Assembly (NCBI GenBank): GCA_018266795.1
Contig: JAFDZV010000049.1
Coordinates: 1-64,000 of the forward strand
Length of the DNA: 64,000 nucleotides
DNA from: Bacteroidota bacterium
Lineage (GTDB): Bacteria > Bacteroidota > Ignavibacteria > OLB7
Direction: 5' to 3'
Shown: in pieces, positions 1,078 through 50,697 of the stretch
Layout: every line of letters begins with the position of its first letter
Position numbering within the stretch: the stretch's first letter is position 1
Notes under the pieces: model-generated
Told to the model about the DNA's origin: nothing
The model's database searches: none
What the model saw: only the letters and a program-made list of their open reading frames with translations
Translations under genes and position numbers: made by a program

Positions 1078-4067
1078 TGCTCGCTTCCTTTGGCGTCAGG
1101 TTCGGTCTCGGCGTCCTTCAGGGACTTGTACATCTGCCGCAGACCATCTTCATCGACACCGAGACGCTCCTTCATCAGGGCACGACGACGCTGCTGCAGA
1201 TCGGCGAGCTCCGCCTTCGCCTTCGTCCGCTCCTCCGTGTTCAACGAATCCATGTTCTGCGATGTGAGAGCCGTGATGCGCCGTTCCAACTCGCGCACCT
1301 CGATCAGATCCTTCAGCTTCTCCACGTCACCCAATCCCGCAGCGTGCAGACGATCGAGCTGCGCGGTGCTCAGCGCCGTGGTATCGATTGCAATCATGGC
1401 ACGCAACGAGTCCGGATCGAGCCGGCTCAGATCCGGCTTCCGGCCGCCGAGCAGACTCCAGTTCAGGCCGTCGGGTCCGGCATTCATATCGAAGAGACTG
1501 AAGTTCCCGCCCATCTTCTTTCGCCCATCCTCGCCGTCACCGCCCGCATCCCCCTCCGGATTACGCATTGCAGCCATGCCAAGCGCCGCGCCCCCACCGA
1601 GTTGCGTGCGCGATCCAGGTGTGCCATCGTAATTGGTCATGTCCGGTGTGTGGTACTGTGTCTCGGCAACGGTCTTGATGCCGCGCTCCGTCTCCCGCAG
1701 CGTCCGCACCAGCTTTCCCTCACCGTTGTACTGGTAGAAGGCACCGAAGTGCTGATCGTCGAACTGCGCCACCAGCCGCAGCGTTGCGGGATCGTAGGCA
1801 TAGCAGATCATCTCCGCATCGAACGGCTGGGCACGCACATCGTCAAGCCACACGTCATCCGTGCTGAGATTGTTGTTCACCGTCAGACTGATTACATCCC
1901 CGGTACTCGTGGCGGAGACATCACACACCTGCTCGAAGAGTGTCCATTCGCCCGTCTGAGCAATCTTTGTCATTGCTCCCGTGCTGGTGGCCGTGGAGAG
2001 GGCACCGGTAATCTTTACAGGAAGGTCGAGATCACTGTAGCTGGCATAGGTACGCTTTGCCCAGAAGCGCACCAGGACATTCTGCGTGCGCATCTGGTCC
2101 GTCACGGTAAGCTTCATGACCTCCTTGTCCGTGCTTCCTCCATGCGGAAGCGTCAGACACCACTGCCCTGAGTGTGCGAAGGTGTTCGCATCTCCCTTGC
2201 CATCCTCGAAACTCTCGTATCCCACGGATGTATAGCGTGCATTCTTGGCAACGAGCTTCGGCATCGTGTTCCTGTGCGCGAACCGCGCGGCGCTGTAGAT
2301 GCCCAGAATGTCCCGCTCCTCAAGCGGCTCGCCGAACGGTGAAAAGAGCGTCACGGTGCTGGCAAGCAACCATTTGGTCCCGGTGTTGGCATCCGGGTTG
2401 CGCCAGTCGAACAACCGGAAGGCGTTTGCCCTGGTTCCATCGTCATTGACAAAAACTCCAGCATCATCGTATACGCGCTCGCTGCTGTTGGAGAGCTTCC
2501 CGCCCGGCTTCGTCCCCGTCCGGTATGCATACGCTTCCATGGGGCGCCATGTCCCCTGCCCCAGTTCGTACACGTTGTTCGAAAAGTTGGGGACAGAGGG
2601 CAACACCCTGTTCTCGAGGAACTCGCTGGTGTCGTAGGGCCACGTGTTCCCGAAACGCTGGGCCGAGGCGGCAATGACGTTGGTCATCGTACGATAACCG
2701 GAAAGGAGCTTACAGAAATCCAGGCACGGGACCGTTTCATACTGCGTCGGATCCGTGGAGCCGACCGGCGTCGTGTAGATGGTCCCGGTCATCGCATCGA
2801 GCGCGAACTCATTGGCAAGATTGAAGGTGTAGTCGCAGTACGTTGCCGGGATATCCGGAAATCGCAATCGCATGATGCGATACTTCCCTGTTGTCGTGCC
2901 CAGGTGGTGGGCGGACTCCTCCTTCGCCTCGAAATAGAGATAGCCATCGGTATCGATGTTGAACTCGCACATCTTGTCCAGCTGCCACTGGGCATCCGAA
3001 CTGAAGAACGACCAGAGGTCGATGTTGTCCTGCGCCGGACTGGACGTGGCGAATTTCTTCCAGACATAGAACGGCGTCGAGTCTGCATCCGAAGGGTGAA
3101 TGCGTATCCAGAATGTGATGCGTACATACGCTGAATCCGGATCGGGTGCCAGTATTCCCGGGGAGCTTTGCACTCCACAGAACGTGGGGGGATACTGACG
3201 GATGCGTGCCTCGATCTCGACGGACTTCACCACACTGTCCAGATTTGCGAGCTGCTCCTTCCTGAAGATGACCTTCGCGTACGCCAGCTTGGCATGGCCG
3301 ATATCGCGCGTCAATCCGGTTTCGCGCTGAACAATGAACGGCAGATTATCCTCGCCGGGGAACATCGACGCGTCGACACGTGGGAAGATCGCGAGCCCCG
3401 AGAGAACCAGTTTCGCCAGCGTCGCATCCTGATCCACCGTGTAACTATTGTGATGGATGCTCCACTCCGCAACACGATCCCAGATCGAATCCCGCGTACG
3501 CTGCGCCACACTCCCACCGGAGATGTTGCTCAGCACATCCATGAAATACGCCTGCTGGAAATGGCCGGACACGAGGCAGGGACTTCCGCTGCCGATCACA
3601 TAGCCCGTAACGGGATCGCCGATGACATCGTTGAACGTCAATCCCCATGAACGCCGCAGCCATGCATCCTCCAGATCGCAGACCATGCGGTGGGAATTGA
3701 GAGGGATTTGCATCCTCCCGCCGGAAGGGCCCGTCACGATCCGCATGGTGACCGTTGGCGTCGTTCCGGGATTCAGGCCGAGCGTAATGATCGGGTCATC
3801 GCTGACCGTCAAGCATGAACCGAATACTCCGCGAAGGTTCAGGTTTCCGATGTCGGCGGAGTTCAGCACCTCCGGGCCGGTTGCTCCCGGGGCACGGAGC
3901 AGTCCCAGCTTCGTATTCAGTTTGGTGACAATGGTCGCACGCTCGGCATAGGTATCCTGAGCATACACCGAATGCAGACCGAGAGCCGGCACTACCAGCG
4001 CCAGCAGCAACAGTCTGAACGGACACATCCTCGATATCGGCGAGTTCATGTTCATATCCCGTATCAT
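1074..4067 (-). CDS. Large exported protein with RHS tail-like region
   Basis: About 997 aa from ATG 4067. In-frame ATGs at 4055, 4049 and 4028 are possible; all keep the signal peptide CPFRLLLLALVVPALG. Residues ~600-740 form a carbohydrate-binding-like beta-sandwich (FEDGKGDANTFAHSGQWCL, later DDVWLDDVRAQPFDA). This leads straight into MICYAYDPATLRLVAQ and FYQYNGEGKLVRTLRETERG, the D.V...P.DA-Y.YDP-YYY.G.G signature that precedes YD repeats in Bacteroidota RHS-type proteins. The C-terminal ~100 residues are charged and helical (coiled-coil-like: ELERRITALTSQNMDSL). There is no T9SS domain and no recognisable toxin domain. It follows the 1631-aa RHS-like gene by ~108 nt and overlaps the next gene by 4 nt. 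It probably supplies the missing C-terminal half of that RHS-like protein as a separate polypeptide. Function unknown. Confidence 0.75.
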   Translation of the reverse strand: MIRDMNMNSPISRMCPFRLLLLALVVPALGLHSVYAQDTYAERATIVTKLNTKLGLLRAPGATGPEVLNSADIGNLNLRGVFGSCLTVSDDPIITLGLNPGTTPTVTMRIVTGPSGGRMQIPLNSHRMVCDLEDAWLRRSWGLTFNDVIGDPVTGYVIGSGSPCLVSGHFQQAYFMDVLSNISGGSVAQRTRDSIWDRVAEWSIHHNSYTVDQDATLAKLVLSGLAIFPRVDASMFPGEDNLPFIVQRETGLTRDIGHAKLAYAKVIFRKEQLANLDSVVKSVEIEARIRQYPPTFCGVQSSPGILAPDPDSAYVRITFWIRIHPSDADSTPFYVWKKFATSSPAQDNIDLWSFFSSDAQWQLDKMCEFNIDTDGYLYFEAKEESAHHLGTTTGKYRIMRLRFPDIPATYCDYTFNLANEFALDAMTGTIYTTPVGSTDPTQYETVPCLDFCKLLSGYRTMTNVIAASAQRFGNTWPYDTSEFLENRVLPSVPNFSNNVYELGQGTWRPMEAYAYRTGTKPGGKLSNSSERVYDDAGVFVNDDGTRANAFRLFDWRNPDANTGTKWLLASTVTLFSPFGEPLEERDILGIYSAARFAHRNTMPKLVAKNARYTSVGYESFEDGKGDANTFAHSGQWCLTLPHGGSTDKEVMKLTVTDQMRTQNVLVRFWAKRTYASYSDLDLPVKITGALSTATSTGAMTKIAQTGEWTLFEQVCDVSATSTGDVISLTVNNNLSTDDVWLDDVRAQPFDAEMICYAYDPATLRLVAQFDDQHFGAFYQYNGEGKLVRTLRETERGIKTVAETQYHTPDMTNYDGTPGSRTQLGGGAALGMAAMRNPEGDAGGDGEDGRKKMGGNFSLFDMNAGPDGLNWSLLGGRKPDLSRLDPDSLRAMIAIDTTALSTAQLDRLHAAGLGDVEKLKDLIEVRELERRITALTSQNMDSLNTEERTKAKAELADLQQRRRALMKERLGVDEDGLRQMYKSLKDAETEPDAKGSEQ

Positions 4068-4175
4068 GCTCTTCGTTTCATTCTCTGCCAGGCACATGGC
4101 ATCTGCAGTGCCATGCAACCGGAATGCTGGAACCGGTCGAACGCGGGCAGTAACCTGCAACTGCAACCGAAGACC

Positions 4176-7100
4176 TCATGGAAGCGGATGATCCACGGTA
4201 AGAGGGATCGTGCCGCCGTATGTGGTCACGGCGCCGGCATCCAGACCAACCTGATTTGTCCGCGCACTGCGGATCAGTTCCACCTTGCCAACGCTTACCA
4301 GCGCCTCAGTGTTAACATTGCTGATGTAGGTGGGGAGCAACTGCACCTGATTACCCGCCACTGCGCCCACGTAGTACGTACCCAGGTAGCTCGCCGGGTT
4401 ATCCGTTCCCAACACCCGCACAAGGTCACCGGGAACCAGTTGCGCAATACTGTTGGCCACAACGCCCATGCCGGTAAACCGGAAATTCAGCACGTGCCGT
4501 TCGCCGCCGACGCCGGCAGCGTAACGCTTTTCAATTGCAAGGCCGTTGTTGCTGGTGATAACAAGCCCTTCACGTTCGGCTAGCTGCCCGAGATCCGAAT
4601 ACTGCTGCGATGCGGGAATGGTGGCAGCGTAGTAGTACCCCTGATGCGCGGTGGAACTCGAGCCAACTGTCAGGTTGTTATAACCATCACTGGTTCGAAC
4701 CAACACAGGGCGTCCGGATTCGGGATCAAATCCGATGTTCTCGCTCAGATGCGAGACGCCGTCGCGCACGGTGAGCGTGGATTTCACGATTGCCGGATAA
4801 CGGATGATCTTGGTAGTTACATGCGTCTGCAGCAACTCCTCGGTGATATCCAGGTCCGGAAACGCGGAGGGAATAATGATGGGAATGAAGGCGAATACGA
4901 TATCCACATCGCCCGCCAGCCCTCCCGCAAATGTCTGATCGTCCACACGCCGCTGCTCCATCACCACCTCCTCCTCACGCCCCAGATATTCCAACGATGG
5001 AGTAGTGCCGAAGCGATGAACCACGGGGATCTTTTCTCCCGGCTGGAAATACGTGAACACCTGCTGCGTTATCAGGGTGTTGCTGGAAGAGCCGCCGAAC
5101 GGATCGCCGCCATATTCAGAGAGGCTCTTCAGCTGCCCGTGCATGCTGTTCTGCACGAACCGGTATCCCTGCGCCCGCGCCATGTCGTAGTGACGGAATG
5201 TTGCGGCACCGTTGGTGAAGATTACCGGTATATCGTTTTTGACAAGCGCGGTATTCATCACGGAAGAATTGCTCTCACCCTCTTCGGCATATGTACCGTC
5301 GAACGGATAATCGCGTGCGGTGTAGAACTCGCGCACCGAATATCCGGTCGTGGTTTTTCCGGTATGGATGTTCCGTGCTACCACGCGGGCGTACCCAATG
5401 CTCGGCGCAGGCAGGATCGATTCGCCCGACGGCGACTCGAACTGATCCTTGTCGTCGCCAGAGAGAATCCGGTTCAGCCAGCTCTGGTCATCACGCTTCT
5501 TGAAGTACGTGATAAGCGGATTCTCCTCGCGACCCGATGGAGGTTCGTTCGTTGCCACGCCGCTGCTGGTGCCGTCGGGCATCTTGTAGGAGTAATCGGT
5601 TCCGTACAGAGCGGCGGATCCGTTGTCGCCGGTGATCCCTTTGTCGTACATCAGCAGCCGCTTCACACGTACGCCCCCTCCCTTCTTGTCGCGTCCGAGA
5701 GGAATGCGGATATAGGAGTGATCCAGGTTGATCGAATTGCAGGAGGTGGAGCGCGTGAACACCGGCAGCGGGAACTTCCCGACGAGGTTCCATACCAGAT
5801 CCCAACCATCCTGGTCGTTGTAGCTGGCCTCAGGGCTCAGCCTGTCGCAGACCCCGTGCTCGTCGAGATTGCCGGCACGGTTGGCCGCCACGAAATTGCA
5901 GGCAGCATCGGCGGGGTGGTCATATCCGCTTGCGATGTTGTCCGAAGTGTTGAAGGCCGGCAACTCCAGATCCAGATCGGCATCGCCGCCGCTGCCGGCG
6001 TTCGCGCTGATTACCTTGGTATATCCGGTAATGAACTCCGATGTGCAGTTGGTCAGGTTGGGTTGGCTTCCCGTGAGTGCGTACAGGAACTTGAAATAGA
6101 ATCGCTCCGACTCCGGATCGGCAATCATGCGCCGAACCGCCTTCCGCACCTCGATCGCTTCCGCGGTGGAAAGCCCGAGGAGGTTCAGGTTGACATGGAC
6201 GTGGGCGCTCTTCCCGTTATAGACCGGGTCGCCCTCCATCGCTCCAAGCTTTGCCATCACCATCACGGGACGATTCTGTACCGTGTGATAATCCTTCTCC
6301 TCGTACTGGATGTGAATCTCGCCACCGGAGGGAAGCTGGATCCATTTCAACTGCCAGGCTGCAGGATCGTACTGCGCCGGCGGGTTCTGTTCCGTCCACG
6401 CCTCGAAATTCTGCGCGCGCGTCACCCCCTGGTACCGGTAATTCCCCCAGCAGTCCAGATCGAACGGCGAGTAGGCTGGATTCTCCACCCATGATTTGCC
6501 GTCACGGAACGCGATGATGTCGTGATATTTGGTCTGTACCGCCGAAGGAAGCGCACTGAAGTGGCTGCTGGTCTGATAGTCGTAGTTGAACACGTACGGG
6601 CTGGTGCGTGCGTTCACCGCCCCTTCGTATTCGAAGAAGACACGCCGCAGTGTAAGATGCCCGTTGCGATAGTGCTGGCCACTTGGATGCGAATCCGGAT
6701 TGATCGCATCCAGCGGATTTTCCTCCGCGTTCGGCAGATGCGGGCAGAGCGAATAATCGTACTCGAAATGCGTCACGGAAAGCTTCTTGCCGATTGTGCC
6801 GTCGGCATTCTTGGCATAGAGCTCTATGCGATCCAGCTTCTGGAGCTTGTTGTGGCCGGGGTCGACTCCGGTTGCATAATCGTGCGCGGTGGCATTGGCC
6901 TCGTCGAGGTCCGCCCCGTAACCATCCTTGCGCGGGCTGGTCACGAAGATCGCGATATGCGTCTTGGTCTCGATCGAGCTGAGGTAATACAGCTCCTTCT
7001 CCCCATAGGCAACCGTACCGATATCATCTTTCGGGTCGGAAAGGGAGTTCCGCTTGTATACCATGCCGTAGTAGGGAATGCGCCACTTGTACCAGTCCGT

Positions 7101-44310: not shown

Positions 44311-45075
44311 ATGAAGCTTCTATCGTGGAATGTCAACGGCCTGCGATCCGTGCTGGGCAAGGGCTTCGCCGATTTCGTACAGGAACATCGTCCGGATATT
44401 CTCTGCATTCAGGAAACGAAGACCCCGGGCCAGGCCGTTGAACTCGATCTTCCCGGCTATCGTGCCTACTGGAACCATGCGGAGCGGAAGGGATACTCCG
44501 GCACTGCAACGTTCCTGCGCACCGAGCCGCTGGATGTCCGCGAAGGAATCGGTGCGGCCAAACACGACAACGAAGGGCGGGTGCTCACAACGGAGCACCC
44601 GGAATTCTTCGTGGTGAACGTCTACGTCCCGAACTCCAAGCGCGACCTTGCACGCCTCCCCTACCGCTGCGAGGAGTGGGATGTGGACTTCCTCAAGTAC
44701 GTGCGGAAGTTGGAGAAGAAGAAGCCGGTGATCTTCTGCGGCGACCTCAACGTTGCGCACAAGGAGATCGATCTGACGCATCCGAAGACCAATGTGAAGA
44801 ACCACGGATTCACACCGGAGGAACGCAGGGGCTTCGACAACATCGTGGGCGCGGGGTTCGTGGACACCTTCCGCGAGTTCGAGAGCGCGGGCGGGCATTA
44901 CACGTGGTGGAGCCAGATGGGCAACTGCAGGGCCAAGAACGTGGGGTGGCGCATCGACTACGTAGTGATATCCGGCGCGCTGCGCCCGCATCTGAAGCGT
45001 GCGTTCATTCTTCCCGAGGTGATGGGCTCCGATCATTGCCCGGTTGGGGTGGAGCTCGCAATCAAGATGAAGTGA
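44311..45075 (+). CDS. xth: Exodeoxyribonuclease III (AP endonuclease)
   Basis: 254 aa, full family length. Acts in base-excision repair, cutting 5' to abasic sites and removing 3' blocks. All catalytic motifs of the EEP fold are visible: MKLLSWNVNGLRSVL at the start (metal-binding Asn), ILCIQETKT (catalytic Glu, ~34), GYRAYWNHAERKGYSGTATF, IFCGDLNVAHKEIDLTHPK (Asp/Asn active site, ~150), NVGWRIDYVVIS, and the terminal GSDHCPVGVEL (Asp-His pair). The LTHPKTN and HAERKGYSG pattern is closer to the ExoA/Mth212-like branch than to the E. coli enzyme. No Shine-Dalgarno precedes the ATG. The gene is convergent with dinB. Confidence 0.96.
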   Translation: MKLLSWNVNGLRSVLGKGFADFVQEHRPDILCIQETKTPGQAVELDLPGYRAYWNHAERKGYSGTATFLRTEPLDVREGIGAAKHDNEGRVLTTEHPEFFVVNVYVPNSKRDLARLPYRCEEWDVDFLKYVRKLEKKKPVIFCGDLNVAHKEIDLTHPKTNVKNHGFTPEERRGFDNIVGAGFVDTFREFESAGGHYTWWSQMGNCRAKNVGWRIDYVVISGALRPHLKRAFILPEVMGSDHCPVGVELAIKMK

Positions 45076-45078
45076 TCC

Positions 45079-45098
45079 TGCCGGAACGCTCTCCGGCA
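45079..45098. terminator. Terminator-like hairpin between xth and dinB
   Basis: TGCCGGA / TCCGGCA stem with a 6-nt loop, beginning 4 nt after the xth stop in the convergent gap. No T-run. The rest of the gap (to 45201) contains imperfect GCCGATGCGCCG repeats. Confidence 0.4.
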
Positions 45099-45201
45099 GC
45101 ACGCCGCGCCGGAGAGCATCTGCGGCCGATGCGCCGCCTGCCGATGCGCCGGCGGCCGATGTACCGGGCGGCATTCGGCCGAGGTGTGGCGCGCCGGGCG
45201 A

Positions 45202-46275
45202 TCACGGCCACTCGAATTCCAGCTCGAGCTGCCCGGCCCTCGAATCCTGCGGCGCAACCAGGTTGGAGAGCGTAAGGCCGATCAACCGCACCGCTCGCGC
45301 GGGCGGTGCCGGCTGCTGCAGCAGTTCGCGGCCGATCGTTCGCAGTTCGCCTGCCGTGGAGACGCCATGACGCACCGTGCGGCTCCGCGTGGAGATGGTG
45401 AAGTCGTGGTACTTGATCTTCAACGTCACCGTTCTGCCGCAGACCGCAACGCTCTGCATGCGCCGCCCCATCTCCTTCACAACGCTTTCCAACCGCATCA
45501 TCAACTCCTGGAGATCAACCACGTCGTTCTCGAACGTGCGCTCCGCTCCGAACGACTTCCGCTGCCGGTCCGTACGTACAAGGCGCTCATCGAGACCGCG
45601 CACCATCCGGTAGTAGTACCGCCCCACCCGTCCGAAGTCCTGAACCAGTTCCTCCTCCGTTCGCAACAACAGATCGGCTCCGCTCTCGATGGAGAGCAAA
45701 CGCATGCGCTTCGCCGTGGCAGGGCCGATGCCGTGGAACCGCTCGATCGGAAGTGCCGCAAGCAGGCCGGGCGCATCCTCGGGAAGGATCACCGTCAGCC
45801 CGTCAGGCTTGTTCATCGCCGAGGCCGTCTTCGCAAGGAATTTGTTGAACGAGACTCCGGCCGAAGCGGTAAGCTGGGTGGCGTCCAGGATATCCTGCTT
45901 GATGGCACGTGCCAGCAGCGTTGCCGACGGCGGCCCCTTGCGCGCCTCGGTGACATCGAGGTATGCCTCGTCGATGGAAACGGGCTCCACGAGGTCCGTA
46001 TAGGAACGAAAGATTGCGCGCACGCGCTGCGAAACGTCGCGATAGATCTCGAAGTTGGGTGGAACGAAAATCAGATCGGGGCACTTGCGCAACGCGAGGC
46101 CGGATGGCATCGCGCTGCGTACACCGAAGGCGCGCGCCTCGTACGAGGCCGCCATCACCACACCGCGCCGCGATCCCCCCACGGCAACGGGGCGCCCGCG
46201 CAGTTCGGGGTTCTCCCGCTGCTCGACCGACGCATAGAACGCGTCCATGTCGATATGGATGATCTTCCTGTGCAT
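45202..46275 (-). CDS. dinB: DNA polymerase IV (Y-family, translesion)
   Basis: 357 aa, usual DinB length. Palm motifs: HIDMDAFYASVEQRENP (D9) and SIDEAYLDVTE (D102, E103), the metal-binding carboxylates. GRPVAVGGSRRGVVMAASYEARAFGVRSAMP is the finger region. AGVSFNKFLAKTASAMNKPDG and a helix-hairpin-helix (PIERFHGIGPATAKRM) follow, then the little-finger domain. The C-terminus QLELEFEWP fits a sliding-clamp binding motif. Its ATG lies only 18 nt downstream of the hipA stop on the same strand, so its expression may now depend on the hip promoter. A second, truncated copy of its first 13 codons is found at 48140-48190. Confidence 0.96.
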   Translation of the reverse strand: MHRKIIHIDMDAFYASVEQRENPELRGRPVAVGGSRRGVVMAASYEARAFGVRSAMPSGLALRKCPDLIFVPPNFEIYRDVSQRVRAIFRSYTDLVEPVSIDEAYLDVTEARKGPPSATLLARAIKQDILDATQLTASAGVSFNKFLAKTASAMNKPDGLTVILPEDAPGLLAALPIERFHGIGPATAKRMRLLSIESGADLLLRTEEELVQDFGRVGRYYYRMVRGLDERLVRTDRQRKSFGAERTFENDVVDLQELMMRLESVVKEMGRRMQSVAVCGRTVTLKIKYHDFTISTRSRTVRHGVSTAGELRTIGRELLQQPAPPARAVRLIGLTLSNLVAPQDSRAGQLELEFEWP

Positions 46276-46293
46276 CGAGATCCACGCAAGTTC

Positions 46294-47541
46294 TTACGAT
46301 AGTACTCGCGCCTTTCGCTGTTTGATAACAGCTATTACGTCGTCGAAAACAGGCGATTCCGTACCGGCTTTTTTCAGGTTCGCCTTGAGATCCTCGGCTT
46401 CGCTAAGAACAGTCAGGCTCATTTCCGACAAGACTTTTTCAAGGTTATTTCTGGCAGTGGCCGTATCCGGCACAAGACGATGCCAATGATGGAGTCGCAC
46501 CTCCATCGGCTCGTATTTCCCACCGATTTTCATGGACATTTTTGAGGCGAGTTCCGGATAGACGGCTGTACTGAGGAGATCATATGCCGGCGCAAGACGC
46601 GGTTTTCCCTGTTCATACAGAAAGGAGAAATTCTTGCCATGTGCATCGGCGTTGCCGATGAGATAATTGAAGATCACGATGTTCAGGAAAGAAACCCTGT
46701 CCGGCAGCGGCGCGATGCTCTGCTGCTGAATGATATCAAGGCACGCGGCAATATCCGGGCCGCCCTCTGACTGGTACTTGTTTTCAGGCACGATGGAGAG
46801 GGCTTGACAGAAATCCTCCTGATGCAACCTCGCCACATGGCCGCCTTTCCACCTCCGGTCATATCGCTCGATCAGGAGAAACGGCTCCGTGGCCGTATGC
46901 CGGATCTCGACACGCGGGACGTCGAGGCCGCACTGCGCCGCCAACATCATGCAGAAGAGCTCGTTGTGAACGCTGTCCTGAACATCCTCCCGTCCGATGA
47001 GTGTTTTCAGGATATGCGTCGTAGGCGCACCGCCTAACATGAGGGCGAGCTTGCCATCCACGACACGGACGGCGAGTTTGTCCTGTGTGCCGGCCAGAGA
47101 CAGTCGAACGCCTTTGTCTCCGGCAAGCAACGGCCTCTGTCTGAGTTCGCCAAAGAGATCGTCCATCGCCTGATCGTCCAGGAAGTACGCATCCGCCGCG
47201 TTCTCCTCATGCGGCCCCTTGCCTTGCGGGTAGAGAGAAAGAGCGCCCGCGCATTCCCCTCCGATAATCTCAAGCAGCGAAAAGGGGTTCTTCTCCGAGA
47301 CGCGTAGGAGTCGGGCTATTTTCCTGCGCGCCTCCTCATCAGGGAGAAGGCCCGAGAAATACGGACGTGTGATCCGGTCCCCGAACTCTTCGGGGCGCAG
47401 CGGCATTGAGATGGAGATAGGCCACGGCTGGGGGGATGTCAGGTAGTCCGCGTCATAGGCGAACAGCAACTGTCCGCTCTTGTCCTGCGTCAATTCGCCG
47501 GCCTTGCTGTTCAGGTACCAGACGTCCAGAATGCGCGACAT
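46294..47541 (-). CDS. hipA: HipA-type serine/threonine kinase toxin
   Basis: 415 aa from ATG 47541; GTG 47544 is an alternative. Members phosphorylate translation components such as GltX and induce persistence; they are neutralised by HipB. Visible motifs: N-terminal HipA domain (YFSGLLPDEEARRKIARLL, GGECAGALSLYP), the autophosphorylation/P-loop segment RLSLAGTQDKLAV (Ser148, equivalent to E. coli Ser150), FLLIERYDR, the catalytic loop YLIGNADAHGKNFSF (Asp299, Asn304) and LAPAYDLLST (metal Asp321). All kinase residues look intact, so an active toxin is expected. The start overlaps the hipB stop by one base (TGATG). Base composition is visibly less GC-rich than the flanks, and the promoter is sigma70-like, both pointing to transfer. 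Confidence 0.94.
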   Translation of the reverse strand: MSRILDVWYLNSKAGELTQDKSGQLLFAYDADYLTSPQPWPISISMPLRPEEFGDRITRPYFSGLLPDEEARRKIARLLRVSEKNPFSLLEIIGGECAGALSLYPQGKGPHEENAADAYFLDDQAMDDLFGELRQRPLLAGDKGVRLSLAGTQDKLAVRVVDGKLALMLGGAPTTHILKTLIGREDVQDSVHNELFCMMLAAQCGLDVPRVEIRHTATEPFLLIERYDRRWKGGHVARLHQEDFCQALSIVPENKYQSEGGPDIAACLDIIQQQSIAPLPDRVSFLNIVIFNYLIGNADAHGKNFSFLYEQGKPRLAPAYDLLSTAVYPELASKMSMKIGGKYEPMEVRLHHWHRLVPDTATARNNLEKVLSEMSLTVLSEAEDLKANLKKAGTESPVFDDVIAVIKQRKARVLS

Positions 47542-47765
47542 CACAAATCGCCTTTACGGTCGTCGGCATAGAGGCTGATACCAAGAGCCACCAGCACTGC
47601 CATCGCCTTTCCAAGATGGCTGGTTGCTTTCCCGCCTTCCAGTTCCACAATAAAGCGGCGTCCCAGCCCGCAGGCGGCTGCAAGCTGTTCCTGCGTAACT
47701 CCTTGAGATTTACGAACCTGCCGTATTATGCTTCCCAAGGTTTCCATGTCTTTGACCTGTTTCAT
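47541..47765 (-). CDS. hipB: HipB-type HTH antitoxin
   Basis: 74 aa, single XRE-family helix-turn-helix: LGSIIRQVRKSQGVTQEQLA, then ACGLGRRFIVELEGGKAT (recognition helix about residues 33-43), followed by a short helical end (AMAVLVALGISL). It should dimerise, bind the three palindromes upstream of itself and sequester HipA. It is shorter than E. coli HipB (88 aa), lacking the long C-terminal tail. It is transcribed from the promoter at 47789-47817 with a leader of under 20 nt and no clear Shine-Dalgarno. Confidence 0.93.
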   Translation of the reverse strand: MKQVKDMETLGSIIRQVRKSQGVTQEQLAAACGLGRRFIVELEGGKATSHLGKAMAVLVALGISLYADDRKGDL

Positions 47766-47772
47766 GACTTTT

Positions 47773-47788
47773 GTTCCCGTTCGGTATC
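47773..47788. promoter_or_regulatory. hip operator O1 (imperfect)
   Basis: GTTCCCGTTCGGTATC, a degenerate copy of the GATACCGATCGGTATC palindrome with one good half-site. It immediately follows the -10 box and covers the likely start of transcription. Confidence 0.6.
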
Positions 47789-47817
47789 ATTATAGCGATT
47801 CCGAGGTCAAGGATCAA
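47789..47817 (-). promoter_or_regulatory. hipBA promoter, sigma70 type
   Basis: On the minus strand TTGATC (-35, 47817-47812), a 17-nt spacer and a perfect TATAAT (-10, 47794-47789). The start is expected near 47782. O1 lies just downstream and O2 just upstream, an arrangement suited to autorepression by HipB. Confidence 0.75.
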
Positions 47818-47820
47818 TAG

Positions 47821-47840
47821 ATGATACCGATCGGTATCAT
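47821..47840. promoter_or_regulatory. hip operator O2 (20-bp perfect palindrome)
   Basis: ATGATACCGATCGGTATCAT is a perfect 20-bp palindrome abutting the -35 box. Its 16-bp core (47823-47838) defines the operator consensus for the other two sites. Confidence 0.8.
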
Positions 47841-47871
47841 TTTATTCCTTTCGTGCCAAGCCAGACGATAT

Positions 47872-47887
47872 GTTACCGATCAGTATC
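47872..47887. promoter_or_regulatory. hip operator O3
   Basis: GTTACCGATCAGTATC matches 14 of 16 bases of the O2 core. Its centre is 49 bp from O2; O2 is 50 bp from O1. Confidence 0.65.
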
Positions 47888-48082
47888 TCTATTAATAAGC
47901 CCCGTCTATGGACCGGCAAGGCCCTCCTACAAGCTTAGAAATATGACTACCGGGATCACCAGCAGCCGCAACCGCCCGTCTACCCCGAGCGCCGCGCCTT
48001 ACCGGATCATCTCTCTCTCAACTATCCGCCGGCAGGCGACAAGGCAAGCGATCATCAGTTGGCCCCATGTTGTACCAAGCGC

Positions 48083-48112
48083 AAAAGCCCAGACGAAGAA
48101 TCCGGGCTTTTT
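48083..48112. terminator. Intrinsic terminator, bidirectional
   Basis: AAAAGCCC (48083-48090) and GGGCTTTT (48104-48111) with a 13-nt loop. There is a T run on the plus strand and a shorter one on the minus strand. It shields hipBA from transcription entering from the right. Confidence 0.65.
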
Positions 48113-48139
48113 CATTGATTTGCAGCCTTTTGCCGATAT

Positions 48140-48190
48140 TCAGCCGCAATGATAGAACGCGTCCATATCGATGTGTATGATCTTGCGCAT
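48140..48190 (-). pseudogene. Truncated 5' end of a second dinB copy
   Basis: The minus strand encodes MRKIIHIDMDAFYHCG then a stop. The first 13 residues are the canonical DinB start, and the intact gene at 46275 begins MHRKIIHIDMDAFYASVE. Over a 32-nt core the two copies differ at three positions, and the remnant lacks one codon. Similarity stops after the Tyr codon. The remnant lies at the far end of the hipBA segment in the same orientation as dinB, as expected if the segment entered at the dinB 5' end. Confidence 0.75.
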
Positions 48191-48282
48191 TGATCTGGCA
48201 GGCAGGCAGTACAATGCCGCAATCTACGGGGCGGAAGCGATTTGAAGGCAGCCGGTTGCCGTCCGTACACCGCACGGCATCA

Positions 48283-50697
48283 CTACGAAGCCGAACGGCC
48301 GTACGGTGTCGCACCCTGGCCGTCCAGAACGGCACGGACGCGCTCGGCCAGCACCTCCGGCGTGAAAGGCTTCTGGAGGAATGCCACCTCAGACTCGAGC
48401 ACACCGTGGCGAAGCACGGCGTCATCGGTGTAGCCGGACATGTAGAGCACCTTCATCTCCGGACGATCGATCGCCAGGCGCTCGGCAATCTGGCGGCCGC
48501 CGGACTCCGGGAGCACGACGTCGGTGAGAAGCAGGTGGATGATTCCATCGTGCCCTTCACTTATTCGCATCGCCTCCTCTCCGGTGCCGGCATCGAGCAC
48601 GGAATATCCGCATTGGCGAAGGATGCGCCGGGCAAGCGAGCGCACCCCCTCCTCATCCTCCACCAGAAGAATGGTCTCGTTGCCGCCGGGTAATGGCTTT
48701 CGTTCCGGCACCGCCTCCGGAGCCTTGCCTCCGCTCCCGGCGCACGGGAGGTAGATCGTGAAGGATGTTCCCTGTTCCGGCAGGCTGTCCACGATAATGT
48801 GCCCGCCGCTCTGCCGAACGATGCCGTACACGGTTGCAAGCCCAAGCCCGGTTCCCTTCCCCGGCCCCTTCGTGGTATAGAACGGTTCGAAGATGTGGGC
48901 CATCACTTCGGAAGCCATGCCGGTGCCGGTATCACTCACCACCAATGCAACGTAGTTGCCGGAGGCGAGGTCGACGTCCTTGAGCAACGCACCGACATCG
49001 GTGCCGGCCCTGTGTGTTTCGATCGTGAGGCGGCCGCCGTTGGGCATCGCATCGGCCGCATTCACGGCCAGGTTCATGATCACCTGCTCGATCTGCCCGG
49101 CGTCAGCGGTAATCGATTCGAGCGATGGATCGAGCTTGATTATCAACGAGACGCTCTCGCCGATCAGTCTGGTCAGCAGCGTTTCGATCTCGCCCACGAG
49201 GACGTTCAAATCCAGCACGCGCGGCCGCAGCACCTGCTTGCGGCTGAACGCAAGAAGCTGCCGCGTGAGCCCGGTTGCCCGATCGCCCGCCGCGGAGATA
49301 TGCCCCACGAGACTGCGGGCGTCCTCGCTCAGCGATTCGTCCGCAAGAAGAATCTGGCTGTAGCCGGAGATGATGGTTAACAGATTGTTGAAGTCGTGTG
49401 CAATGCCTCCGGCAAGCTGGCCGATCACTTCCATCTTCTGTGCCTGGCGCAACTGCTCCATCAGCCGCTGCCGCTCCACGCCGACCGCCACGGTGCGCGC
49501 AACCGCCGCCAGCGCGTCGAGCACCGTCTCCTGCAGCGGACGGCGACTGAACATTCCCACAACGCCAACAACCCGATCATCCACGAGCATCGGCTGGCCG
49601 GCAAAGGAGACAATTCCCTCGCGCCGCCCCCAACGCCCCTCCGGCGAGTCCACGCCATCGGTGATGCCGTTGATAAGCCGGGGCTGGCGGTCACGCGCAA
49701 TCGAGCCGACATCGTACTGGCCCACCGGCACCACTGCAAAGGCATCGGCGGCCTGCGAGGAAAGCCCGGCGCTGGCGTGCAACAGCAGCGTATCGCCCGA
49801 AGCGTTCACCACCCATATTCGAACCAGGCTCGCACGGAGATTGCGCACCATGGACTCCGCACAGAGCTGCAGCATCCCATCCAATGTGGTTCCCTGTGTG
49901 GCCGCCAGAGTCACATCGCTGTTCAAGGAAAAGAGTGCGCCGGAGCGCTCGCCTGCCGGGTCGCGCAGCACGGTCACGCTGCCGCTCGCCCTGCCGGACT
50001 CGTCGCGAATGCACGTGGTCATCGAATCCACCGGTATGCTTCGCTCCGAACGATCGATCAGCAGGGTGTTCTCCCCCACGCATACCACGGGCCCTTCGGC
50101 CAGGTCATCCAGCGATACCGGCTCCCCGCTCTGACGATCGACAAGGCGAACGATGTCGCCCAGCTTCGCGCCTATCGCATCCTGGCTGGTCCACTCGGTG
50201 ATCGTTTCGGCAGCCGGGTTGAAGATCGTGATCACATCGTCGCTGTCGGCCGCGATCACGGCATCGCCGATCTCGTTGATCGCCGCCAGGAACCACCGCT
50301 CCACCTTCCGCATCCGGCTCTCGGCGCGATGCTTGTACAGCGCCATCTCGATGTTCGCAAACAGCTCGCGCTCGGAGAACGGCTTCACGATATAACCGAA
50401 CGGTTCGGTGATTTTCGCGCGGTCCAGCGTCTTGCGATCGGTATACGCCGTCAGATAGATAATCGGAATATTGTGGCTGCGCCGGATCACGTCGGCAGCC
50501 TCGATTCCATCCATCTCTCCCTTCAGAACGATATCCATCAGAATCAGATTCGGCTCCATCGACGCGGCGAATTCAATCGCCTCCGGACCGGAGGAGGCGA
50601 TTGCCGGAACTTCGAATCCCATCTTGAGGAGCCGGGCCTCCAGTTCGCGTGCAATGATGATCTCGTCATCCACGATGAGAATTCTCGGGAGTGCCAT
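48283..50697 (-). CDS. Hybrid response regulator/histidine kinase (REC-PAS-GAF-HisKA-HATPase-REC)
   Basis: 804 aa, cytoplasmic (no membrane helix). Receiver 1 at ~5-118 with phospho-acceptor D55 ([11 protein letters not shown]) and Lys in [11 protein letters not shown]-like region ~127-245 ([20 protein letters not shown]). GAF-like region ~260-405 ([33 protein letters not shown]). HisKA with H434 ([20 protein letters not shown]). HATPase with N-box [15 protein letters not shown]1 DTGTGM, F-box EPFYTTK and G2 [13 protein letters not shown]. Receiver 2 ~675-790 with D726 ([14 protein letters not shown]). This is the REC-led hybrid kinase class that integrates an incoming phosphoryl group with its own sensing. 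It lies 3 nt downstream of the PAS/HisKA_2 kinase gene, clearly the same operon. Output partner unknown. Confidence 0.93.

Follow-up and report, generated by a model that had tools for sequence, protein, structure and literature searches.

The hipBA toxin-antitoxin genes that precede dinB in the 64,000-nt stretch of DNA analyzed here (hereafter, the window) probably belong to a site-specific integrative element, now decayed, for which the conserved start of dinB served as attachment site. We hold this reading with moderate confidence, and within it hipBA is one cargo of the element and not its mover.

Organization of the dinB-hipBA locus

Read 5' to 3', the minus strand of the locus contains a histidine kinase gene (HK, 50697-48283), a stranded dinB start, a hairpin, hipB, hipA and an intact dinB. 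The stranded start spans 51 nt (48190-48140, minus), reads MRKIIHIDMDAFYHCG followed by a stop codon and resembles an attL site. The intact dinB (45202-46275, minus) encodes a 357-aa DNA polymerase IV with the Pfam domains IMS and IMS_C, and is convergent with a plus-strand endonuclease gene (44311-45075, Exo_endo_phos) for which we use the name exoA. The analysis confirmed this pairing of an intact dinB with a remnant in the same orientation, which had been pointed out in a first-pass annotation of the window. Both dinB starts share an identical 15-nt core, ATGGACGCGTTCTAT, at 48152-48166 in the remnant and at 46234-46248 in the intact gene (both minus), where it would be attR-like in the polarity that we infer.

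The remnant core is followed by the putative element end (48151-48069, minus), made up of about 40 nt, a hairpin with its inner stem at 48111-48083, and GGTACAAC; this end has homologs in a congener genome, G001. Together with the hairpin, the interval of about 375 nt that separates the remnant from hipB holds three operator-like repeats, which lie with a promoter-like sequence in the hipBA control region (47893-47766, minus). The antitoxin gene hipB (47541-47765, minus; 74 aa, HTH_3) is followed by the toxin kinase gene hipA (46294-47541, minus; 415 aa, Couple_hipA and HipA_C). The 18-nt spacer between the hipA stop codon and the dinB start (46276-46293, minus) is presumed to be the other end of the element, with a boundary that is placed tentatively, and the dinB codons from 46275 to the core at 46234-46248 may have been supplied by the element. 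Between exoA and dinB, the window also carries three near-tandem GCCGATGCGCCG-type repeats, 15 bp apart (45116-45166).

The two dinB starts

With the extra His codon of the intact gene set aside, the remnant and the intact dinB start align codon by codon, with 34 of 39 nucleotides equal; the five mismatches are all synonymous, and the final 15 nt (ATGGACGCGTTCTAT) are identical. The repeat search listed the pair as 33 nt at 91%, and a 41-nt remnant pattern allowing up to three mismatches matched only itself, with no match in 100 shuffles. Because the differences are all synonymous, both starts probably derive from working dinB genes, and the pair does not represent a fresh duplication. The segment thus displays imperfect direct repeats at both ends and a restored intact dinB, as would be expected of an element integrated into the 5' end of a gene.

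Divergence between two starts that are both conserved in protein sequence would also suit a decayed tandem duplication of dinB, in which the first copy was reduced to its start and hipBA inserted between the two, and dinB has likewise decayed at the same locus in G001. A search of 47766-48151 for additional dinB pieces, however, returned nothing better than E 0.38, and in G001 an end of this kind also follows the corresponding break. We consider such a duplication highly improbable.

Under the preferred integrative reading, a postulated circular form carrying the element end, hipB, hipA and a dinB-like start would have recombined within ATGGACGCGTTCTAT. The old dinB start would have been left upstream, together with its promoter, as attL, and dinB would have received a replacement start (MHRK for MRK) as attR. 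An integrase, perhaps a P4-type one (the class name of IntA/IntB-like integrases), would have been lost from the window copy, which is presumably stranded because the integrase is absent. The remnants begin with MRK in both species and the intact window dinB with MHRK; at the sequence level, this fits an original MRK start and an MHRK replacement. At the wobble sites of three codons (ATC, CAT and GAC), however, the intact window dinB agrees with G001, so that this polarity of the two starts, with the remnant as the original, is tentative.

A comparable junction in a congener

The comparison within the genus relies on G001, the only congener compared, whose assembly is 95% complete. A full dinB match was found neither in this genome nor in the other three family genomes searched (four in total). 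G001 does retain a 3' relic of dinB (L031 10400-10650; 51-55% identical), which has an HTH_Tnp_1 transposase-like ORF at its broken 5' side and converges on an orthologue of exoA (75% identical) that serves as anchor for the locus. A relic of the dinB start, running from the ATG to codon 11 (L031 723-755), lies 9.6 kb from the 3' relic in the same orientation. Of its 33 nt, 31 agree with the intact dinB of the window and 29 with the remnant. Directly behind this start relic lies a homologous copy of the window end, with a local alignment score of 49 against a mean of 17.8 and a maximum of 39 in 500 shuffles; this copy came to light when the window end was aligned with a locus selected beforehand for its dinB relic. 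The cargo that follows in G001 is not hipBA, and includes a 3-dmu-9_3-mt gene (PF06983) of the VOC-superfamily type; it is succeeded by a second copy of the end and by the dinB 3' relic.

Both species therefore share, in the same orientation, the succession of dinB start, end sequence, cargo, dinB body and exoA. The junction recurs with a different cargo, in a position that is close but not exact, since the G001 break falls 6 nt earlier in the gene. The flanks upstream of the remnants differ, with HK in the window and DUF1501 in G001, and the two junctions may go back to a single old insertion whose cargo was exchanged, or to two insertions. The proposal in the first-pass annotation that the imperfect repeats are equivalent to attL and attR gains support from the stranded start and homologous end that G001 has of its own, from the lack of a HipA match in that genome and from the foreign composition of hipBA. 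The idea of an element specific to hipBA, which the same annotation had made contingent on the absence of relatives carrying such a remnant without hipBA, has to be given up: a comparable remnant in G001 lacks hipBA, pointing to a common landing site where cargo can be exchanged. Type IX sorting domains, one of which, in G001, scores below the cut-off, suggest that the DNA is from Bacteroidota.

Copies of the putative element end

The end sequence consists of roughly 25-45 nt, a hairpin and either GGTACAAC or GGTACAGC, with a second CCAAC or TACAAC in some copies. The hairpin region and a GGTACARC motif are common to the window and G001 ends. In the window, the inner stem at 48111-48083 has a predicted folding energy of -20.7 kcal/mol (z -3.7), and the A/T flanks of the hairpin belong to the stem; for the copy that follows the dinB start relic in G001, the predicted fold is poor (z -2.0). 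The window hairpin is absent from the results of a consensus terminator scan, so that the term terminator expresses a likeness by eye. A similarity search with the end sequence across 61 genomes recovered two G001 contigs, C36 (E 1.6e-6) and C16 (E 6.8e-5), with all remaining matches away from the window locus at E 0.007 or worse. Searching for the stem followed by GGTACAAC yielded five places in 3 of 294 class genomes (one in G000, three in G001 and one in G002), corresponding to three of the five family genomes versus none of the other 289; the reversed control gave no match. The shuffle scores of the G001 C24 and G002 copies are biased, because these copies were found only through this pattern.

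The surroundings of these copies vary. In G002, which belongs to a related genus (L193 3686-5806), the stem starts about 30 nt behind a tRNA-Ser(CGA) gene, with an ApeA/HEPN defence-like gene beyond it. The copy on G001 C24 (L181 1500-2654) adjoins a frameshifted, SoFic-like Fic gene. On G001 C16, a hairpin with 21 perfect pairs lies behind GTGGATATGGACGCGTTCTAC, a dinB-like core located away from dinB, about 160 nt from a tRNA-Pro gene. The second copy on G001 C36 adjoins an integrase-like relic. By resemblance, L181 also contains transposase-like ORFs on the side opposite the Fic gene, and in L146 (4530-4700, G001) the dinB-like core and 21-pair hairpin near tRNA-Pro and tRNA-Phe seem, by eye, to truncate the tail of an ORF. 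Ten matches to the end pattern in viral contigs lacked A/T-flanked stems and were discarded as chance-like.

Search for the mover

The first-pass annotation had noted neither an integrase nor an exact target duplication, and both observations hold: none of the six PF00589 matches in the genome lies on the window contig (C43), and no exact target duplication was seen at the segment. None of the 29 PF00589 matches in the five family genomes has a hairpin with GGTACAAC within about 1.5 kb on each side, and these family integrases matched none of the ORFs in the stretches fetched from G001 and G002 around the end copies. None of the end copies was found to adjoin an intact integrase, leaving the element without an integrase that could be called its own. 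Inspection by eye of the plus-strand frames in 47880-48151 for the tail of a transposase or integrase revealed nothing convincing. An integron cassette or pdif module was also considered and rejected, as the ends, examined by eye, are without paired GTTRRRY/RYYYAAC sites.

The integrase-like relic in G001 (L031 1635-2012, minus) encodes 125 aa, of which a 41-residue stretch is identical at 17 positions (41%) to the C-terminus of E. coli K-12 IntA (E 2e-4; phmmer 1.9e-5 in a 30-sequence set). It matches the integrase model NCBIfam PRK09692 at E 0.0069, below the cut-off, and a PHROG without assigned function at E 5.4e-4. The relic has no Pfam match at E 1, no tblastn match in plasmids up to E 10, and no relatives in viral contigs or in the other 148 of the 149 genomes. 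These similarities weakly suggest the C-terminus of a tyrosine integrase, a lead rather than proof. The mover, described as unknown in the first-pass annotation, accordingly still has no intact integrase to its name, but this relic narrows the field.

The shared end is mostly hairpin, and several copies with changed outer stems still pair, as a hairpin repeat would. It is thus conceivable, if unlikely, that the end is such a repeat, or an unrecognized transposon end, with the dinB starts as passengers and a mover other than a tyrosine integrase. The lack of intact integrases at the end copies agrees with this, as do the transposase-like genes near some of them (HTH_Tnp_1 in L031 and DDE_3 in L146; L181 and L194 by resemblance). 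A passenger role does not sit well, however, with the two dinB starts and one dinB-like core that precede end copies, or with the copy placed closely behind a tRNA 3' end, as attachment sites would be, and the repeat search found no inverted repeat joining the two ends of the segment.

Integrity, composition and relatives of hipBA

Both hipB and hipA are intact, in the order of type II HipBA modules, with an HTH-domain hipB followed by a two-domain hipA kinase; the window HipA has both Pfam HipA domains and can be aligned with E. coli HipA over the stretch GNADAHGKNFS. In a module of this type, HipB would neutralize the toxicity of HipA, with autoregulation at operators, for which the operator-like repeats are candidates. 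The pair is compositionally foreign. GC content is 0.533 in hipB and 0.564 in hipA, against 0.638 in dinB and 0.627 in HK (neighboring HK2 is at 0.551), making the segment moderately AT-rich. The fit of synonymous codons to local usage is the worst among nine window genes for hipB (-1.376 per codon) and hipA (-1.174), with the other seven between -0.877 and -1.103 and dinB (-1.009) within that range. The AT-richer character of hipBA had been perceived correctly in the first-pass annotation.

HipA matches occur in 21 of the 61 genomes searched, the source genome included, and the two best outside it are 32 and 35% identical. No HipA match was found in the congener G001, in G002 or in G003, and a partial one (7.1e-15) is present in G004, another family genome. 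The best relative among the matches listed, at 61% identity, comes from an unrelated MAG, and the next, near 50%, are mainly proteobacterial.

We examined the genomic context of the best 80 of at least 580 HipA loci, fetching up to 5 kb on each side and less at contig ends. Integrase-like ORFs lie within the fetched stretch at six of these loci besides L128, the weakest at 1.3e-4 (L105); the L128 integrase itself forms part of the profile used for their detection. Tyrosine integrase ORFs are located on the same strand directly upstream of hipB in L095 (3300-4538) and L079 (3332-4498), the latter behind the 3' end of a tRNA-Leu gene. Since these integrases directly precede hipB, such hipBA modules can move together with integrases. 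In this set of 80, only L128 has a dinB piece near hipA, a divergent 5' relic. This locus, from a Verrucomicrobia MAG (2819-6251), holds a 78-aa ORF with the dinB relic, a tRNA-Tyr gene, a tyrosine integrase and hipBA; we do not count it as support, because the break in its dinB falls at another codon and the relic is oriented away.

These surveys bear on whether homology-assisted illegitimate recombination formed the segment, with an incoming hipBA-dinB unit recombining at dinB and its other end joining inside the resident start. The foreign character of hipBA and the restriction of differences between the window dinB starts to synonymous sites, as in two alleles, are compatible with such an event. 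A donor, however, is not apparent: dinB does not follow hipA at any of the best 80 of at least 580 HipA loci, and among 30 dinB loci (2.6-4.1 kb each) hipBA is present solely at that of the window. Recombination of this sort would also not account for the G001 junction, which is homologous but has other cargo, and we deem it improbable.

Distribution of dinB starts

A motif scan for DinB starts across the phylum produced matches in 118 of 395 genomes, with two on one contig in the source genome only; the pattern is strict and would miss relics of the G001 length as well as most DinBs of the class, whose starts differ. A second start-like match was seen at three dinB loci, all weak (E 0.36-0.95). 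A stricter motif had no matches in viral contigs, and the 40 records returned by a DinB-start search in phages comprised annotated polymerase genes, some hypothetical or unlabelled entries, and others in unannotated records; an attP may be among them. Rfam returned three matches in 45000-49500 (E 0.62-0.74), far below gathering scores.

Outside the genus, long DinB matches in the class share at most 39% identity with the window DinB, against about 55% for those of Rhizobiales and Persicobacter; because the window protein is closer to the latter, dinB may have entered the genus from outside. A chimeric Rhizobiales origin of the dinB start was discarded, as the plasmid matches reflect whole-gene similarity (about 55% at the protein level) that is shared with Persicobacter.

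Promoter-like sequence, operator-like repeats and possible consequences for dinB

A sigma-70-like promoter, TTGATC-17-TATAAT, precedes hipB at 47817-47789, and three copies of the operator-like sequence GATACCGATCGGTATC start at 47773, 47823 and 47872. The promoter, described as E. coli-like in the first-pass annotation, is present as reported, but such sites number four in 2.5 kb where 1.4 are expected, so that some will also be chance occurrences. With dinB only 18 nt behind hipA and the hairpin now behind the old dinB start, dinB may be transcribed together with hipBA from the hipBA promoter.

More broadly, small integrative elements using the DinB start (the HIDMDAFY codons) could carry toxin-antitoxin or defence cargo and, on insertion, exchange the promoter of the polymerase for that of the cargo. 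Expression of the error-prone polymerase would then follow loss of the antitoxin, coupling dormancy to mutagenesis. We put this forward as a speculative and rather unlikely extension. The insertion itself also sets a stress polymerase immediately downstream of the promoter of a toxin-antitoxin pair, and so offers a testable link between persistence and mutation.

Comparison with known systems

No report of dinB as an integration site was found in the open literature among the matches listed, a survey distinct from island databases, and dinB can provisionally be considered a new landing site. In the island paper PMC4814525, the gene concerned is a DinB-family cargo gene and not a dinB attachment site; PMC6299477 and PMC9504249 also mention dinB, and the main text of the Integrase-On-Demand paper does not. 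If the integrative reading is correct, dinB joins the protein-coding genes that serve as landing sites, with target codons conserved enough for movement across species.

E. coli dinB-yafNO (PMC7167474) likewise has a toxin-antitoxin pair inserted next to dinB and joined with it in one operon, the two being judged functionally unlinked. The E. coli pair is downstream of dinB and controlled by LexA, whereas the window pair lies upstream and may impose its promoter. In Shewanella, hipAB stabilizes the integrated genomic island GI21, which carries it as cargo (PMC8978831); homologues of this island use a protein gene, yicC. GI21 differs from the window segment in its target gene and in its reported excision upon expression of integrase and excisionase.

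P4-type elements in tRNA genes, exemplified by leuX-intB of E. coli K-12, run from the end of an attachment gene through GGTACA/TGTACC motifs to an integrase, an arrangement that the proposed dinB-start element resembles. At leuX-intB, TTGGTACAGATG and TTGTACCAAC lie between the tRNA and intB; the GGTACA motif is absent from ssrA-intA of the same strain. Unlike these elements, the window element would target the start of a protein gene, and an integrase is represented only by a weak relic in the congener.

The closest parallel is provided by the dusA islands (PMC4482086), which share insertion at the 5' end of a conserved housekeeping gene, a 5' remnant, an element-supplied start and imperfect attL and attR sites. 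The window segment is not itself a dusA island, its target gene being dinB, and it differs from them in its 1.9-kb size and in lacking an integrase, where dusA islands have an integrase family of their own. On the preferred reading, the dinB-start element would work like dusA islands.
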